NCBI RefSeq assembly: GCF_013019105.1
Contig: NZ_BLTE01000008.1
Location: forward strand, 62,001-126,000
Length of the DNA: 64,000 nucleotides
Reading direction: 5' to 3'
Source of the DNA: Fundidesulfovibrio magnetotacticus
Lineage (GTDB): Bacteria > Desulfobacterota > Desulfovibrionia > Desulfovibrionales > Desulfovibrionaceae
Shown here: positions 2,621 to 9,726 of the stretch, piece by piece
Position numbering within the stretch: position 1 is the first letter of the stretch
How the letters are laid out: every line of letters begins with the position of its first letter
Notes under the pieces: model-generated
Told to the model about the DNA's origin: nothing
Seen by the model: the letters and a program-made list of their open reading frames with translations, nothing else
Database searches by the model: none
Position numbers and translations under genes: made by a program

Positions 2621-2702
2621 TTTGACCTCTCACGGTCAAACGGCCTGATCCGGGACGCCTAGCCCCGGCGCGCCCCGGATCAGACCGTTTGCTGACAAAC
2701 GG
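2621..2702 (-). promoter_or_regulatory. qmoA leader with three overlapping inverted repeats
   Basis: Seen directly: TTTGACC (2621-2627) and GGTCAAA (2634-2640) form a perfect 7-bp inverted repeat with a 6-base spacer, just upstream of the qmoA ribosome site. An 18-bp repeat with one mismatch pairs 2637-2654 with 2674-2691. A third, CCGTTTG/CAAACGG, pairs 2685-2691 with 2696-2702. The middle hairpin shares bases with both outer ones, so they cannot all form together. The first palindrome could instead be a protein operator: its TTGACC/GGTCAA half-sites resemble the motif I recall being proposed for HcpR of the CRP/FNR family, but with a longer spacer. Function is inferred. Confidence 0.5.
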
Positions 2703-2720
2703 CCGGCTTCCGGCTGGAAA

Positions 2721-2748
2721 ACGGCCGCGGGCTTTCGCCCGCGGCCGT
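2721..2748 (-). terminator. Rho-independent-type terminator after aprA
   Basis: A perfect 12-bp stem (2721-2732 with 2737-2748) closes a 4-base loop that reads GAAA on the minus strand. TTTTCC follows. It lies 14 bases past the aprA stop, so much aprBA transcription should end here, with read-through feeding qmoAB. Confidence 0.75.
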
Positions 2749-2762
2749 GCTTGGTCCGAAGC

Positions 2763-4763
2763 CTACTGGGCGTCGGGGATGATCTGGATGTAGGGACGCT
2801 TGAAGATCTTGGTCTCCCTGGTGGCAGGGTCGTACTTCGAGTTGACGAAGCACTTCCACTTGCTGTCGTCCAGGCCGGGGAAGTCGCCGCGGTAGTAGAA
2901 GCCGGGGTAGCGGGACTCCTCGCGGAAGGCGATGTGCTGCATGTGCAGGCGCACGGTCCACAGGCGGTGGAACTGCTCCCAGCAGCGCATCAGTTCGTGC
3001 AGGTCGCGGGCGGCCAGCTTCTTGGAGTCCTCTTCCAGCATGGCCAGCAGCTTGAAGCCGGTGCCCAGCAGGGAAGCGGAGGTGGTGTACAGGGTGCCAA
3101 CGCCACCGCCGTATTCATCGGTGCACTTGATGAGGCGCATCATGAAGTTCTTGGGCGAGATGAAGTTGGGGTTGATGACGGGGTCGGTGGACACGCCCTT
3201 GTACTGTTCGAAGGTATACCAGGGCTGGTAGATTTCCTTCTTCAGTTCGTCGGCCTTGGCGGCGATGGAGGGCTTGTAGTCCTTGTGGTCCACGCACCAG
3301 CGCACCATCTGCTTGCCGACGATGCGGCCTTCAGCGTGCGAACCGGACGAGAACTTGTGGCCGGAGGCGCCCACGCCGTCGGCGCAGGTCCAGAGGCCGT
3401 TCACGGTGGTCATGCGGTTGTAGACCTTGCCGTTGTCGGCGCGGACCTTGTACTCCTCGGGAACCCAGTCCTCGTCGGGACCGGAGGCCCAGATGCCGCA
3501 GCAGCCGGAGTGCGAACCGAGCAGGTAGGGCTCGGTGGGCATGATCTCGGAGCCGGACTTCTCGGGCTCGATGTTCATGGCGGCCCACAGGTTGGCCTGG
3601 CCCACGCACATGTCGAGGAAGTCTTCCCAGGCCTCGCTCTCGAGGTGCTTCTGCTGCTCGGGAGTCATGGTGGCGAAGGTAGCCTGCAGGGCGCCCGCGG
3701 TGTCCATGTAAATGGGGCCGCGGCCGGCGCGCATTTCGGCGAGCATCATGTGGTTACGCAGGCAGGTCGGGATGATGTGACCCTTGGCGTAGCCGCGATC
3801 CTCGTAGGGCTTCAGCATGGCGCGGTTGGTGGAGCAGTAGTCCTCGCCCTTGGAGTTGGTCGCCTTGGCCTTGAAGAGCAGGAACCAGGCGCCGACCGGT
3901 CCGTAGCCGTCCTTGAAGCGGGCGGGCACGAAGCGGTTTTCCATCATGGTCATCTCAGCGCCGGCCTGAGCGCACATGGTGTAGGTGGAACCGGCGTTCC
4001 ACACGGGGTACCAGGCGCGGCCGAGGCCTTCACCGGTGGAGCGGGGCTTGTACACGTTCACCGCGCCGCCGCAGGCCACGACCATGGCGTTGCAGGTGAA
4101 GATGGTCACCTTGTTTTCGCGGGTGGAGAAGCCAACGGCGCCGGCGACGCGGTTGGGCTCCTTGGTGTCGTTGAGCAGCTTCACGATGAAGAGGCGCTCG
4201 ATGTAGCGGTCCTGGCCCAGGGCGTTCTTGGCCGCTTCGGCCACGATGCACTTGTAGGACTCGCCGTTGATCATGATCTGCCAGCGGCCGGAGCGGACGG
4301 GGTCGGCGCCGGTGCGCAGGGAGACGCCGGCGGCCTTGGACTGGGCGCCGTCGAGGTTGTGGCCGTGGGCGTCCTTGGTCCAGCAGGGCAGGCCCCACTC
4401 TTCGAACAGGTGGACGGAGTCGTCGACGTGGCGGCCCAGGTCGAAGATCAGGTCTTCGCGGACGAGGCCCATCAGGTCGGTGCGGACCATGCGGACGTAG
4501 TCGTCGGCGTTGTTCTTGCCCAGGTAGGTGTTGATGGCGGAGAGGCCCTGGGCCACGGCGCCGGAACGCTCCATGGAGGCCTTGTCCACCAGCATGATGG
4601 ACAGGTTGCCGCCGACCTTGTCGGCCCAGCGCACGGCCTCGAAGGCCGCGCCGCAGTTGCCCATGCCGCCGCCGACCATCAGGATGTCGACGTACTTTTC
4701 TTCAACGACAGGTTCGGCGAGAGCGACGCCCTTCGCCTCTTCTTTCATCGGAATACGGGGCAT
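2763..4763 (-). CDS. aprA: Adenylylsulfate (APS) reductase subunit alpha
   Basis: The 666-residue FAD subunit of dissimilatory APS reductase, which reduces adenosine 5'-phosphosulfate to sulfite and AMP in the cytoplasm as the second step of sulfate respiration. The FAD-binding motif VGGGMGNCGAAFEA starts at about residue 30, and the fumarate-reductase-type flavoprotein fold continues through the sequence. Length matches the family. It is 42 bases downstream of aprB, the partner iron-sulfur subunit, and shares its promoter. The sequence is intact. Electrons are expected from the Qmo complex encoded next. Confidence 0.98.
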   Translation of the reverse strand: MPRIPMKEEAKGVALAEPVVEEKYVDILMVGGGMGNCGAAFEAVRWADKVGGNLSIMLVDKASMERSGAVAQGLSAINTYLGKNNADDYVRMVRTDLMGLVREDLIFDLGRHVDDSVHLFEEWGLPCWTKDAHGHNLDGAQSKAAGVSLRTGADPVRSGRWQIMINGESYKCIVAEAAKNALGQDRYIERLFIVKLLNDTKEPNRVAGAVGFSTRENKVTIFTCNAMVVACGGAVNVYKPRSTGEGLGRAWYPVWNAGSTYTMCAQAGAEMTMMENRFVPARFKDGYGPVGAWFLLFKAKATNSKGEDYCSTNRAMLKPYEDRGYAKGHIIPTCLRNHMMLAEMRAGRGPIYMDTAGALQATFATMTPEQQKHLESEAWEDFLDMCVGQANLWAAMNIEPEKSGSEIMPTEPYLLGSHSGCCGIWASGPDEDWVPEEYKVRADNGKVYNRMTTVNGLWTCADGVGASGHKFSSGSHAEGRIVGKQMVRWCVDHKDYKPSIAAKADELKKEIYQPWYTFEQYKGVSTDPVINPNFISPKNFMMRLIKCTDEYGGGVGTLYTTSASLLGTGFKLLAMLEEDSKKLAARDLHELMRCWEQFHRLWTVRLHMQHIAFREESRYPGFYYRGDFPGLDDSKWKCFVNSKYDPATRETKIFKRPYIQIIPDAQ

Positions 4764-4805: not shown

Positions 4806-5300
4806 TTATTTGCAGAAGCCGTCCAGCCAGCACTGCTCGGTGCCCGCCTCGGTGATCTCGAACTTCTTGCCGAGCACGGCCTGGGGCTTGGCCAGAGGGC
4901 CGGCTTCGGTGAAGAGCAGTTCGTCATCCAGGTTGCCGGGCTCGGGCTTGCCCTCGTAGGGCTTGATCGAACCTTCGGGGGTGGTGCGGATGGGGAACTT
5001 GAAGCGCTTCACGTTGCCGTTGCGGAACTTCACGGTCCACATGATGGAGTCGGCCGAACGCATGGGGATGGACGTGCCGCCCATGGGAGCGAAGTCGGCG
5101 TAGGGCCTGGCCTCGATGGCGCCCTGGGGGCAGATCTTCACGCAGGAGTAGCACTCCCAGCAGGCCTCGGGCTCCTGGTTGTAAGCCCGCATTTCGGCCG
5201 GATCGAGGATCATCAGGTCGTTGGGGCAAATGTACATGCAGGCGGTCTTCTCGCCGCCCTTGCATCCGTCACATTTGCTAGGATCGACAAAGGTAGGCAT
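4806..5300 (-). CDS. aprB: Adenylylsulfate (APS) reductase subunit beta
   Basis: The 164-residue iron-sulfur subunit that carries electrons to the FAD of AprA. Two ferredoxin-type [4Fe-4S] motifs are visible: C10, C13, C21, C25 and C47, C50, C53, C57, each ending in CP. A long C-terminal tail, typical of AprB, wraps the alpha subunit in known structures and here ends with QCWLDGFCK. The ATG at 5300 has a GGAGG ribosome site seven bases upstream. It is the first gene of aprBA and is preceded by a leader of roughly 255 bases with a small ORF and a terminator-like hairpin. Confidence 0.98.
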   Translation of the reverse strand: MPTFVDPSKCDGCKGGEKTACMYICPNDLMILDPAEMRAYNQEPEACWECYSCVKICPQGAIEARPYADFAPMGGTSIPMRSADSIMWTVKFRNGNVKRFKFPIRTTPEGSIKPYEGKPEPGNLDDELLFTEAGPLAKPQAVLGKKFEITEAGTEQCWLDGFCK

Positions 5301-5382
5301 ACCACGTCCTCCACGCTAGTTGATGGTTGATTCCCTGTTCGCTGCCAACAAAAACGCTGTCGCCTGCCGAACCCCGAAGGGG

Positions 5383-5421
5383 AAAAAGACGCCCGGCCGG
5401 ACGGTATCGTCAAGGCCGGGC
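5383..5421 (-). terminator. Terminator-like attenuator in the aprBA leader
   Basis: On the minus strand GCCCGGCC (5421-5414) pairs perfectly with GGCCGGGC (5398-5391). An inner GACG/CGTC pair closes a GTAT loop, and the hairpin is followed by GTC and five T (5387-5383). No minus-strand gene other than the proposed 29-residue leader ORF ends upstream, and there is no T run on the plus strand, so the only transcript it could stop is the aprBA leader. aprB starts 82 bases further on. A second small hairpin, CCCC-TTC-GGGG, follows at 5372-5382. Confidence 0.6.
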
Positions 5422-5427
5422 AGAACT

Positions 5428-5517
5428 TCAAACCGGATCAGGCGCGGACACGGAGGACGCGGGACAAGCGCGCAAGCGAACGATTTCACGAACTCTCATG
5501 CTGCTTCCCCCACCCAC
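5428..5517 (-). CDS. Putative 29-residue leader peptide upstream of aprB
   Basis: A GTG at 5517 is preceded by a consensus AGGAGG at ideal spacing (six bases) and opens 29 codons to a TGA at 5428-5430. An in-frame ATG lies at 5499. The peptide is Arg/Ser/Val-rich with one Cys and resembles no family I know. Its stop codon lies six bases before the left arm of the terminator-like hairpin at 5391-5421, so a ribosome at the stop would cover that arm. I infer a leader peptide for attenuation. It could also be a chance ORF; the main evidence is the unusually good ribosome site in an otherwise non-coding leader. Confidence 0.35.
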   Translation of the reverse strand: MGGGSSMRVREIVRLRACPASSVSAPDPV

Positions 5518-5562
5518 CGTTAACCTCCTGGTTCAAACCGCCCGGACGGGCGGCTTGTGAGG

Positions 5563-5591
5563 AATGTAACGAGACACCCAGCCGCCGTCAA
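5563..5591 (-). promoter_or_regulatory. Candidate sigma70-type promoter of aprBA
   Basis: On the minus strand TTGACG (5591-5586) and TACATT (5568-5563) are separated by exactly 17 bases. Transcription would start near 5556, giving a leader of about 255 bases. A CCGCCCG/CGGGCGG hairpin at 5538-5553 would lie at the very 5' end of the mRNA. Confidence 0.55.
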
Positions 5592-5596
5592 GCCGA

Positions 5597-5614
5597 AAGT
5601 GAAATATATTACAA
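5597..5614. promoter_or_regulatory. Possible CRP/FNR-family binding site upstream of the aprBA promoter
   Basis: On the minus strand the site reads TTGTAA-N6-TCACTT, matching 9 of 12 positions of the TTGTGA-N6-TCACAA pattern used by many CRP/FNR-family regulators. It ends five bases upstream of the proposed -35. HcpR-type regulators of this family have been proposed to control apr and sat in Desulfovibrio by comparative genomics. That recollection is the only support beyond the match. Confidence 0.3.
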
Positions 5615-5784
5615 AAGGCCTAAGTTACTGATTATGCTGTGAAAATCGCCTAGCCGGATCGCCGGAATTCTCGTCGGAAGGATTGCCCGACTCCGATACC
5701 ATCCCCCAGAACCCATGGCAAGAGGCAAGGCGAAACTTTCCACGAATCCTTGCTTTCCGCCACGTTTGACGCCATAAAAACCCC

Positions 5785-7323
5785 GTGGAACTTCCCTCGC
5801 GCGACGCACCCCCGGGCCAGGCCAGGCTCCAGGCCCTCCTGGACGCCGCCGTGGACGCCATCGTCATCGTCGGCGAAGACCACCTCATACAAGACTTCTC
5901 CCAAGCGGCCTCCAAGCTCTTCGGCTACGACAGGCGCGAAATCCTGGGCCAACCAGTTGACATGCTCATGCCCGAGCCCTTCCGCTCGGCCCATGCCGGA
6001 TACCTGCGGCGCTACCTGGATTCCGGCGAACCGCGCATCATCGGCCTGGGCCGCGAGGTGCCCGCACTGCGCAAGGACGGCACGACCTTCCCCGCCTACC
6101 TCTCCGTGGGCGTGGGTCAAGAGGACGGCAGGCGCTTTTTCGTGGGCATCCTTCACGATCTCTCCCGAGAAAAGGAGGCCTTCCGGCGCGTGCGCGACCT
6201 GGCCTCCCTGGTGGACTCCACCGGCGACGCCGTGACGGGCGAAAACAACGCGGGGGTGGTCACCTACTGGAACAAGGGCGCGGCCGAACTCTTCGGCTAC
6301 ACCGCCGCCGAGGCCCTGGGCCGCGACCTGGCCGAACTGCTCGTCCCCCCCGAACGCAGGGCCGAGTTCTCCACCCTGCGCGAACGCCTGCAAAAAGGCG
6401 AGGGGCCGCTGCGCGTGGAGACCGAACGCCTGGACAAGACCGGCAAGCGGCTCATCGTCTCCCAGACCGTCTCCCCCATCCGGGACGCCGAGGGCCGCGT
6501 GGCGGGGGCCTCCACCATCGCCCGCGACGTGACGGCCCGGCGCACGGCCGAACGCGCCGAGGCCTTGGCCAGGCGCGCCGCCGAGGAGGCCAACCGCGTC
6601 AAGGGCGATTTCCTCTCCATCGTCTCCCACGAGCTGCGCACGCCCCTCACCGTGATCCTGGGCAACATCGCCCTGCTCACCGACGGCGGCAACATGCCCG
6701 GGCCCGAGGTGGCGGCCTCCATCGCCCAGGACATCGAGGACAGCGCCAACCGGCTCCTTGGCCTGATCAACGACCTCCTGGACATCTCCGACATGGAGGC
6801 CGGGCAGGCAAAACTGCGCGTCTCCCCCGTCCAGGCCGACGAACTGGTGCGCGAGGCCGTGCTCGCCGCCCTGGACAAGGCTGACGAAAAGGGTCTGGCC
6901 ATCACTTTCGAGGCGGCCCCCCTGGAGATCACCGCCGACCCGCTGCGCCTGAAGCAGGCCCTGGCCAACCTGGTGGACAACGCCATCAAGTTCACGCCCT
7001 CGGGCTCCGTGTTCGTGGGGGTTTCGCGCGCGGGAAACTGCGCCCTCTTCGAGGTGACGGACACCGGGCCGGGCATTCCCGACGACCAGACCGCACGCAT
7101 CTTCGACGCCTTCCACCAGGCCGACACCTCGCACACCCGCGCGGCACAGGGCGCCGGCCTGGGCCTGACCATCGTGCGCCGCATCGTGGAACTGCACGGC
7201 GGCGTGGTGAACGTGCAGAGCGAGCCCGGAACGGGGAGCAGCTTCTTCATGGCCATCCCCCTAACCCCGCCGCCCGGTGCGGTGGCCTGCACACCGGCCG
7301 GACTGGATGACCCGCGAGACTAG
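5785..7323 (+). CDS. PAS-PAS sensor histidine kinase
   Basis: A 512-residue protein without clear membrane segments, so probably cytosolic. Two PAS domains (about 12-130 and 140-252) precede a HisKA domain with the phosphoacceptor in IVSHELRTP (H282). A HATPase_c domain carries the N box (NLVDNAIKF) and glycine boxes (DTGPGIP and GAGLGLTI). The start is GTG at 5785, the only reasonable initiator before an in-frame TGA at 5767. It diverges from aprB and sits 84 bp upstream of bcsA with no partner response regulator. It may control exopolysaccharide, but only position suggests that. Confidence 0.9.
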   Translation: MELPSRDAPPGQARLQALLDAAVDAIVIVGEDHLIQDFSQAASKLFGYDRREILGQPVDMLMPEPFRSAHAGYLRRYLDSGEPRIIGLGREVPALRKDGTTFPAYLSVGVGQEDGRRFFVGILHDLSREKEAFRRVRDLASLVDSTGDAVTGENNAGVVTYWNKGAAELFGYTAAEALGRDLAELLVPPERRAEFSTLRERLQKGEGPLRVETERLDKTGKRLIVSQTVSPIRDAEGRVAGASTIARDVTARRTAERAEALARRAAEEANRVKGDFLSIVSHELRTPLTVILGNIALLTDGGNMPGPEVAASIAQDIEDSANRLLGLINDLLDISDMEAGQAKLRVSPVQADELVREAVLAALDKADEKGLAITFEAAPLEITADPLRLKQALANLVDNAIKFTPSGSVFVGVSRAGNCALFEVTDTGPGIPDDQTARIFDAFHQADTSHTRAAQGAGLGLTIVRRIVELHGGVVNVQSEPGTGSSFFMAIPLTPPPGAVACTPAGLDDPRD

Positions 7324-7407: not shown

Positions 7408-9726
7408 ATGCGAAACGCCCCCCTGGACGCCCCATCCCACGCCCTGCCCACGGCCATGCTCTGGGTCATGGGGCTTTCGACCGTGGGCGTCTGCGTGGCC
7501 TCGGGCCTGTACCTCACCCTGGACCACCAGCGCGTCCTGGGCTGGAGCCTGGCGGGTTCTCTTTACCTCATGAGCCTGGTGGAGCCGCGCCTGGGCATGG
7601 TCTTCCGGGTGTTCTTCCTGGCCCTGGGGGTGTTCATCTCCCTGCGCTACATGGTGTTTCGCACCACCGAGACGCTCATCTTCACCGGCCCCGCGGATTT
7701 CGCGTTCATGATGCTGCTCTACCTCTCGGAACTCTACGGAGTGATCATCCATTTCCTGGGGATGTTCGTCAACGTCTGGAGGCTGGACCGCAAACCCGCC
7801 CCTCTGCCTGAGGACCAGTCCCTCTGGCCCACCGTGGACATCTTCATCCCCACCTACAACGAGCCCGACGACGTGATCTTCCTCACGGCCCAGGCCTGCG
7901 CCCTCATCGATTACCCCCGCGAAAAGCTCGCCATCTACATCCTCGACGACGGCGGCACCCTGGCCAAACAGAACAACCCCGACCCCGCCGCCGCCTGGGA
8001 GGCGCGCGACCGCTCCGAACGCCTGCGCCACATGTGCGACGACCTGGGCATCCGCTACCTCACCCGCGAGCGCAACCTCAAGGCCAAGGCCGGCAACATC
8101 AACTCGGCCTTCATGGGCCACTCCTACGAGAGCGCCGCCCCGGGGCCGGACGGCGCGCTCGTGCCCTGCGCACCCCTGCGCACCACCGGGGAACTGATCC
8201 TCATCCTCGACTGCGACCACGTGCCCACACGCGACATCCTGCGCAACACCGTGGGGTTCTTCCTCAAGGACCCCAAGCTCTTCCTGGTGCAGACCCCCCA
8301 CTACTTCCTCAACCCCACCCCCGTGGAGAAAAACCTCCAGACCGCCCAGGACTCGCCCGGCGAGAACGAGATGTTCTACGGCGCCGTGCAACTGGGGCTG
8401 GACTTCTGGAACGCCTCCTTCTTCTGCGGGTCGGCCGCCGTGCTGCGCCGGTCCATCCTGGAACCCCAGGGGGGCATTTCGGGGGAGACCATCACCGAGG
8501 ACGCCGAGACCGCCCTGGGGCTGCACGCCAAGGGCTACAACTCCGTCTACATCAACAAGCCCATGATCTCAGGGCTCTCGCCAGAAACTTTCGCGGACTT
8601 CATCCTCCAGCGCTCCCGCTGGGCGCAGGGCATGACGCAGATCTTCCTGCTCAAGAATCCCCTGATGCAGAAGGGGCTCACCTTCGAGCAGAAGCTCTGC
8701 TACTTCAACTCCTGCTTCTTCTGGTTTTTCGGCGTGGCGCGCTTCTTTTTCTTCATATCGCCCTTTCTCTACCTCTGCCTGGGCCTGCGCGTGTACAACG
8801 CCTCCATGAGCCAGATCGTGGCCTACGCCCTGCCCCACCTGCTGGCCAGCTACGTGATCTCCAACAACCTCTTCGGGCAGGTGCGCCACCCCTTCTTCTC
8901 CGAACTCTTCGAGACCATCCAGAGCTTCTACCTGCTCCCGGCCATCCTGGCCGTGGCGCTCAACCCCCGCAAGCCCAGCTTCAAGGTGACTCCAAAGGGC
9001 GTCGCCCTGGAGACGGACTTCCTCTCGCACCTCTCCGCGCCCTTCTATTTCATGCTCCTGGTGTGCCTCTTCTCCTTCCTTTTCGGCGTTTACCGATGGA
9101 CCGCCTACCCCATGGAGCGCGACGCCATCATCGTCACCGTGGCCTGGAACTTCTTCAACCTCATGATGCTCATGCTCTGCCTGGGAGTGGTCTGGGAGAA
9201 GCGCCAGATCAGGCGCTTCCACCGTTTTCGCGCCAAGGGGCTCGTCATGCTGGGAGACCCCGACTCCACGGACTGGACCCCCACCGCACTCTACGACCTC
9301 TCCCTCCTGGGCATGGGCATGCTCCTGGCCGACGCCTCGCCCTACGCCATCGGAGACAAACTCAACGCCCAGGCCACCGACTCCTACGGGCACACCTACA
9401 CCTTCCGCCTGCGCATCGAACGCATCTTCCCCTGGGGCGGCATGCACTACGTGGGCACGCAGTTCATCATCCCCGACGACGAGGCCATGGCCTCCGTGGT
9501 GGCCTACGTCCACGGCGACTCGGCGCGCTTCGCCCATTTCGCCCGCAGCCTCTTCAACAAGCGCGTGGGGCTCCTCACGGGCTTCTACTATCTCATCGCC
9601 AAGAGCTTCCTGGGAACCGTCCAGAACATCCAGGGCATCCGCCGCATGATGGGCCGCCTGGCCAGGAACCTGGCCACGCGCGCCCTAGGCGTCGTCCTGC
9701 CCCAGACCGCACGGAGAGAACCATGA
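7408..9726 (+). CDS. bcsA: Cellulose synthase catalytic subunit (UDP-forming), PilZ-containing
   Basis: Inner-membrane family 2 glycosyltransferase of 772 residues that polymerises glucose from UDP-glucose and extrudes the chain. Hydrophobic helices at the N-terminus precede the transferase domain, with FIPTYNEP (about 145), a DDGG segment, DCD (about 267), TED (about 362) and QRSRW (about 401-405). These are the processive-synthase signature residues. A second set of membrane helices follows. A C-terminal PilZ domain is suggested by arginines around residue 594 and DASPYAIG near 640, implying activation by c-di-GMP. Its stop overlaps the bcsB start (ATGA). No good ribosome site precedes the chosen ATG, so the true start could differ slightly. 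Confidence 0.95.
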   Translation: MRNAPLDAPSHALPTAMLWVMGLSTVGVCVASGLYLTLDHQRVLGWSLAGSLYLMSLVEPRLGMVFRVFFLALGVFISLRYMVFRTTETLIFTGPADFAFMMLLYLSELYGVIIHFLGMFVNVWRLDRKPAPLPEDQSLWPTVDIFIPTYNEPDDVIFLTAQACALIDYPREKLAIYILDDGGTLAKQNNPDPAAAWEARDRSERLRHMCDDLGIRYLTRERNLKAKAGNINSAFMGHSYESAAPGPDGALVPCAPLRTTGELILILDCDHVPTRDILRNTVGFFLKDPKLFLVQTPHYFLNPTPVEKNLQTAQDSPGENEMFYGAVQLGLDFWNASFFCGSAAVLRRSILEPQGGISGETITEDAETALGLHAKGYNSVYINKPMISGLSPETFADFILQRSRWAQGMTQIFLLKNPLMQKGLTFEQKLCYFNSCFFWFFGVARFFFFISPFLYLCLGLRVYNASMSQIVAYALPHLLASYVISNNLFGQVRHPFFSELFETIQSFYLLPAILAVALNPRKPSFKVTPKGVALETDFLSHLSAPFYFMLLVCLFSFLFGVYRWTAYPMERDAIIVTVAWNFFNLMMLMLCLGVVWEKRQIRRFHRFRAKGLVMLGDPDSTDWTPTALYDLSLLGMGMLLADASPYAIGDKLNAQATDSYGHTYTFRLRIERIFPWGGMHYVGTQFIIPDDEAMASVVAYVHGDSARFAHFARSLFNKRVGLLTGFYYLIAKSFLGTVQNIQGIRRMMGRLARNLATRALGVVLPQTARREP

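Follow-up and report, generated by a model that had tools for sequence, protein, structure and literature searches.

The DNA analysed, hereafter called the window, is a stretch of 64,000 nucleotides of Fundidesulfovibrio magnetotacticus, in which the genes for the two subunits of APS reductase, aprB and aprA, lie on the minus strand behind a leader with several recognizable elements (Table 1). The gene next to this leader is a divergently oriented PAS/histidine kinase gene, and no gene was seen upstream on the minus strand, so that the terminator-like hairpin of the leader has no other gene to end; the initial annotation had reached the same conclusion, that it serves the leader transcript alone. 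A minus-strand open reading frame (ORF) at 5650-7197, which overlaps the histidine kinase gene, gave no Pfam or NCBIfam match. On the 3' side of the kinase gene, the catalytic subunit of cellulose synthase is encoded on the plus strand (7408-9726; TIGR03030, 807 bits).

Table 1. Positions of the aprBA leader elements and neighbouring genes in the window, and of the Solidesulfovibrio-type leader at locus L010
Feature	Position	Strand	Remarks
CRP/FNR-family-like operator TTGTAATATATTTCACTT	5597..5614	-	5' of -35; from sequence; similar block in 7/7 genus genomes
Sigma-70-like promoter TTGACG-17-TACATT	5563..5591	-	-35 and most of -10 invariant in 7/7
5' hairpin H1	5534..5557	-	folds; part of the five-sequence consensus structure
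SD-like AGGAGG	5524..5529	-	GGAGG invariant in 7/7; paired with linker in full leader fold
Leader ORF, 29 codons, GTG to TGA	5428..5517	-	equal length in 5/7 genus genomes, missing in 2
H2 core, long covarying hairpin ACGGYGG...CCGT	5450..5520	-	holds GTG start and most of the ORF
Linker extending H2	5439..5449	-	folds; CC and CCUG pair with SD stretch
Intrinsic-terminator-like hairpin	5383..5421	-	stem 5421-5391, T-tract to 5383; counterpart here in 7/7
Small inverted repeat CCCC TTC GGGG	5372..5382	-	directly 3' of T-tract; by eye, counterparts in the rest of the genus
aprB, APS reductase beta subunit	4806..5300	-	TIGR02060, 249.8 bits (cut-off 135.65)
aprA, APS reductase alpha subunit	2763..4763	-	TIGR02061, 1092.3 bits (cut-off 641.75)
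PAS/histidine kinase gene, divergent from aprBA	5785..7323	+	family profile match
Solidesulfovibrio-type apr leader	L010:1990-2262	-	eleven further loci, L125-L131 and L133-L136

All the elements that had been named in the initial annotation were recovered, that is, the CRP/FNR-like site, the promoter with 17-base spacing, the hairpin at the 5' end (by folding), the 29-codon ORF behind a consensus AGGAGG, and the hairpin with its T-tract, which begins six bases past the ORF stop and ends 82 bases before aprB (5300). The spacing between AGGAGG and the GTG at 5517 is 6 nt. The promoter is one of two sigma-70-like matches in 12 kb, for which 0.9 ± 1.1 are expected. The stem at 5421-5391 is GC-rich, with a dG of -23 kcal/mol and the tail GTCTTTTT, and the element at 5421-5383 has the form of an intrinsic terminator, a GC-rich hairpin closely before a T-tract. 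A second CRP/HcpR-like block, GTTACATTCCTCACAA, lies on the minus strand at 5570-5555, overlapping the -10 and the start, and blocks similar to TTGTTAAnnnnnTCACAAGC were seen by eye at the -10/start position in several other genera.

Taken by itself, the terminator pattern scan of the region did not exceed chance (9 found against 7.3 ± 3.3 expected), and the case therefore rests on comparison; in shuffles of the window's own GC-rich leader, a hairpin with dG <= -16 appeared in 14%. Seven genomes of the genus were compared, G000 being that of the window. The operator, the promoter, a GGAGGTTWACGGYGG block and the region of the aprB ribosome-binding site are conserved in all seven. A terminator-like hairpin is present 141 to 90 nt 5' of aprB, likewise in all seven, with dG between -18.9 and -30.8, and in five of them the GC-rich stem is followed, after 0-3 nt, by 5-6 consecutive T; G002 and G006 have a weaker T-tract with interruptions, TCTTGTT. 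A common absence of both ORF and hairpin from the close relatives was not what the comparison found, and the idea of an attenuator survives.

Two further observations concern the conserved sequences. The GGAGGTTWACGGYGG core was considered as a repeated element and rejected, since only seven of its 12 matches are at aprB and the other five were read and judged to be chance; among these, G002 and G006 each contribute one match at a shared position, next to what looks like the start of a gene. The minus strand at 5464-5383 gave a weak match to the Burkholderia small RNA family anti-hemB (24.5 bits against a gathering score of 49.5), the best of the weak Rfam matches within 5290-5700 (E 0.0011 for 411 bases), and this match probably reflects merely the shared shape of a GC-rich terminator.

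The leader ORF is less widely kept than the terminator. In G000, G002, G004, G005 and G006, it runs from GTG to TGA over exactly 29 codons, stops 3-8 nt before the stem, and is preceded, at good spacing, by an SD in which 6-7 bases match. In the alignment of G001 and G003, the GTG is replaced by GCG, and no ATG, GTG or TTG was found in these two leaders (L006, L007) from the TSS motif to the T-tract, a distance of about 180 nt; both keep the terminator and an otherwise heavily structured leader. The conservation of ORF length, and of the stop-to-hairpin distance that the initial annotation had put forward as a check, was thus found in five genomes and does not extend to the other two, where there is no ORF. 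In a tree of aprB-aprA (15 rows), G001 and G003 are sisters (100/99) within a clade shared with G004 and G005 (100/100), and G000 and G002/G006 fall outside this clade without a resolved order between them. Because G001 and G003 are nested in the tree, the ORF was, on grounds of parsimony, probably ancestral in the genus and lost once, while the terminator was kept.

No selection by codon phase was seen in the ORF among the five genomes, the variable columns being distributed 18, 18 and 16 over the codon positions, and codons that differ in the ORF frame encode amino acids less similar to one another than the mean of the shuffles. Of 20000 column shuffles, 1417 (7%) left the frame open in every one of the five, which makes the open frame by itself only mildly unusual; as another frame likewise has a stop that the five share at a single place, the conserved stop is weak evidence. 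The peptides are identical at 9-22 of 30 positions, the stop included, and at 27 of 30 for the near-identical pair G002 and G006. A cysteine-sensing leader peptide, considered after Cys codons had been noticed by eye in leaders of other genera, was rejected for the inconsistent Cys counts in the genus (1, 3, 3, 0 and 2 in G000, G002, G006, G004 and G005), and no control codons are common to the five ORF-bearing genomes. No selection on the peptide was thus detected, and translation as such may nonetheless be important.

For scoring of SD and ORF, 20 leaders were used, including the seven of the window's genus and one left unscored as no TSS motif was found. Outside the window's genus, 12 leaders were scored; seven of them contain an ORF of 15 codons or more with its end at the stem, where 3.8 ± 1.6 are expected, and an SD match of at least 5 precedes none of these ORFs. 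As these ORFs lack a good SD, the feature of wider occurrence ahead of aprB is the terminator and not the SD-led ORF. Within genus g53, G093 (L149) has an ORF that ends at the stem and G070 (L151) has no such ORF; the unscored leader is that of G109 (L150) in the same genus, in which a TSS motif is visible by eye.

The ORF and its SD may also, although this is somewhat less likely than not, have arisen by chance in a leader rich in GC, an explanation that overlaps the three other alternatives considered below, so that the likelihoods given here do not sum to one. It would account for the lack of a codon signal, for the two genomes without the ORF and for the frequency with which the frame stays open upon shuffling, but it fits less well with the good SD and the identical length and stop in five of seven genomes. 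Dinucleotide shuffling of the window's leader yielded an SD-led ORF of 15 or more codons with its end at the stem in about 1% of cases, and the figure is 1-4% across the five ORF-bearing leaders; that ORFs reaching the stem are mildly more frequent than expected in other genera also speaks against chance.

The stronger conserved signal is an element absent from the initial annotation, an RNA hairpin, H2, which takes up the ORF region and is predicted to mask the ribosome-binding site of the ORF. In all seven leaders, the ORF region folds into this one long hairpin, with a base formed by ACGGYGG and a CGCCGT-like strand (CTCCGT in G000, with one mismatch), and in each leader it is more stable than the majority of dinucleotide shuffles (z -2.0 to -4.3). 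By RNAalifold analysis of the five gapless sequences, H2 gave -20.7 kcal/mol against -9.1 ± 2.5 for column shuffles, none of 500 being as low; for the full leader of the five sequences the values were -60.8 and -37.4 ± 3.9 (0 of 200 shuffles). The structure of 30 pairs had 86% of its cells paired, as against 39-53% for slid versions, a measure on which it is favoured by having been derived from the same five sequences. Two-sided changes were found in eight of the 30 pairs, a number reached by 15 of 500 shuffles, and the covariation score was matched by none of 500; a measure of further pair types was not above the shuffles (406 of 500). The apex of H2 is variable in sequence.

The five sequences were used to build a covariance model of H2, which detected G003 (24.5 bits) and G001 (21.9 bits) at aprB, and the base of the hairpin persists in these two genomes despite the lack of an ORF start. 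In whole genomes of the genus, the clear matches (91.6-102.1 bits) were the five building sequences, all at aprB; G001 contains a match elsewhere that scores slightly above the one at aprB (22.8 against 21.9 bits). A search of 149 family genomes, under stricter filters that lost G001, gave only two weak matches outside the genus at E <= 0.05, in G087 (E 0.025) and G073 (E 0.033). Both were taken as chance, the match in G087 lying about 51 kb from aprB.

The predicted effect of H2 on the ribosome-binding site is the same in all seven leaders. By partition function, the mean unpaired probability of the SD is 0.62-0.78 for the RNA made up to the 3' arm of H2 and falls to 0.09-0.39 at the terminator stage. 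Even without the 3' arm, the stretch of the start codon is in part paired (0.21-0.71 unpaired), and later its unpaired probability drops to 0.25 in G000 and to 0.0 in each of the six others. A pairing of the upstream leader with the left arm of the terminator, as expected for an antiterminator, was not conserved, falling below 5% of shuffles only in G006.

The aprBA leader is probably a real attenuator, and a certain amount of premature termination within it is quite likely. As to how it would work, a transcription attenuator gated by the ribosome is the best explanation, to be held tentatively. RNA polymerase would start near 5557, the inferred start point, and a fraction of the transcripts would end at 5421-5383 before reaching aprB. 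In the ancestral leader, the ribosome-binding site and the 29-codon ORF would be placed inside H2 in such a way that the 3' side of H2 closes over the site, which therefore would leave only a brief time for loading of a ribosome during transcription. A ribosome loaded in time would open H2, reach the TGA just ahead of the stem and block the terminator, so that aprBA is transcribed; with no ribosome in time, H2 would close, the terminator would form and aprBA would remain off. The signal could be the translation capacity of the cell, or whatever alters the closing of H2. That the ORF is translated and that the ribosome decides the outcome we infer, and leader translation as the sensor is put forward with similar reserve: it is plausible in five species and, given ATG, GTG or TTG as starts, impossible in two, so that in the clade of G001 and G003 the step of readthrough would have to be something else. 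The initial annotation had proposed that a ribosome resting at the leader stop covers the left arm of the terminator, so that leader translation promotes aprBA expression; occlusion is permitted by the gap of 3-8 nt, and the control by translation is supported in part.

The main rival to ribosome-gated attenuation is an RNA switch independent of translation, in which H1, H2 and the terminator are read by a protein or a small molecule and the ORF is incidental or a local elaboration. This alternative, which we consider somewhat unlikely, would explain why the H2 base and the terminator persist in G001 and G003, why GGAGGUUUACGG is kept there with no such start codon to serve, and why the covariation of the RNA is accompanied by no codon signal; the sister genus Solidesulfovibrio, too, has a different, covarying apr leader (see below). 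It agrees less well with the variable apex of H2, unlike a typical aptamer core, with the restriction of clear matches of the H2 model to aprB, and with the lack of a conserved antiterminator pairing. Rfam gave no family at gathering score in the window, and the matches to the leader at loose thresholds were weak.

The distribution of leader terminators was then considered over the family, using the regions upstream of aprB in 80 members of 30 genera (32 genera had a good aprB match; g14 and g26 were left out). A strong leader terminator was defined as a terminator-like hairpin with dG <= -16 located 190-30 nt before aprB, and the expectation was taken from dinucleotide shuffles. A total of 21 of the 80 members have such a terminator against 2.3 expected, and the member-averaged sum over the 30 genera is 8.8 against 0.7. 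More than half of the members carry it in eight of the 30 genera: g1 (7/7), g3 (2/2), g10 (2/2), g15 (2/2), g53 (3/3), and g27, g43 and g47 with one member each. It was also found in one of two members of g46 and one of three of g51, and in the other 20 genera no leader terminator was found at dG <= -16. A count of one representative per genus (10 of 30 against 0.95 expected), in which the choice of representatives favoured g46 and g51, is superseded by the count of 80 members.

Other forms of leader were noticed by eye in the same comparison. Leaders of the Nitratidesulfovibrio and Halodesulfovibrio types contain hairpins similar to AAAAGGCAGG..CCTGCTTTTT about 40-60 nt past the TSS motif; some of these are nested in an outer GATGGAG/CTCCATC stem, and they fall below the scan thresholds at that place. 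The long apr leaders of L017 and L156 (g3) and of L172 (g54) share blocks such as TCATTGAAAGyCCnG, with several inverted repeats before a T-tract hairpin, and are possibly another type of structured leader.

The terminators also bear on two further explanations. The hairpin could be a partial terminator without regulation, which either holds aprBA transcription down at a constant level or sets free a small leader RNA with a role elsewhere. The retention of the terminator while its sequence and the ORF change, and the occurrence of leader terminators in several genera behind different upstream leaders, would fit with this explanation, but a fixed level would presumably be set more easily at the promoter, and the elaborate, covarying H2 suggests more than a trim; we regard it as rather improbable. 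It is quite improbable that there is no terminator at all and that the hairpins are a stabilizing or pausing structure at the 5' end of a very abundant mRNA, as could be supposed from the high expression of aprBA in sulfate reducers, the nesting of some hairpins of other genera in an outer stem and the interrupted T-tract of G002 and G006, because the GC-rich stem with 5-6 T in five of the seven genus members, and the A-tract/stem/T-tract hairpins in apr leaders of other genera, have the usual form of intrinsic terminators.

Attenuation is known mostly from the synthesis of amino acids and nucleotides. The apr leader resembles leader-peptide attenuators of the trpL, pheA and his type in having a short SD-led ORF followed by an intrinsic terminator, with the ORF region folded, but differs from them in the lack of shared control codons and of a conserved antiterminator, in the loss of the ORF from two of seven genomes, and in its target, a respiratory enzyme instead of a biosynthetic operon. 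With attenuation of the pyrBI type, which depends on coupling between ribosome and RNA polymerase, ribosome-gated attenuation of aprBA would have in common that a ribosome near the terminator prevents its folding and that the peptide sequence is unimportant; the ORF of pyrBI, however, runs through the attenuator, whereas that of the apr leader stops before the stem. H2 pairs with an SD and a start codon, as do hairpins of riboswitches or thermosensors that sequester a ribosome-binding site, but the site hidden by H2 is that of the leader ORF and not that of aprB, and it is the ORF itself that supplies the 3' strand of H2.

If the leader acts as an attenuator, a respiratory pathway would be under attenuation, and sulfate respiration would be linked to translation or to an unknown signal. 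The excess of leader terminators in the family makes attenuation of apr genes a general question that can be tested. APS reductase is a central enzyme in the dissimilatory reduction of sulfate, and such regulation as we found described acts at the promoter: in the available text of PMC1274295, HcpR is predicted to control apsBA and sat in Desulfovibrio, with down-regulation by nitrite reported as fitting. The operon is the same, and CRP-like sites likewise lie near its promoter, but HcpR is a transcription factor acting on initiation, and leader RNA is not mentioned in that text; the two CRP-like blocks at aprB do not conflict with an attenuator. The words Desulfovibrio and sulfate do not occur in the main text of a genome-wide survey of premature terminators (PMC2965389), nor do "apr" and "adenylylsulfate" in the available text of a survey of non-coding RNA in Oleidesulfovibrio alaskensis G20 (PMC11124144). 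The statement of the initial annotation that it knew of no attenuator described for apr genes agrees with the Rfam result for the window and with the literature matches listed, which covered few subscription papers and among which none was named.

In the sister genus Solidesulfovibrio, a different and strongly conserved apr leader RNA of about 265 nt is present in all 12 genomes examined. It contains invariant TCGGCACCAAGCGACGC and CGCGGATGTCC blocks and two-sided changes in 11 of 58 consensus pairs, and its consensus fold, at -33.6, lies below those of all 150 column shuffles (-15.7 ± 3.6). A CCAAGCG sequence is predicted to pair with CGTTTGG, located directly 5' of the AGGA of aprB, and the seven pairs are invariant. 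No Rfam match to this leader was found upon scanning of L010, and it is a candidate riboswitch. Together with the leader of the window's genus, it raises the prospect, somewhat doubtful at this stage, that sulfate respiration in the Desulfovibrionaceae is controlled by RNA, the aprBA leaders being rapidly changing switches: in the genus of the window, a race between ribosome loading and the closing of a hairpin over the ribosome-binding site of the ORF within it would decide whether APS reductase is made, and in Solidesulfovibrio the leader would pair with the stretch beside the SD of aprB. On the opposite strand of L010, about 670 nt upstream of aprB, a cobalamin riboswitch was identified (2655-2846, plus strand; RF00174, 65.5 bits).
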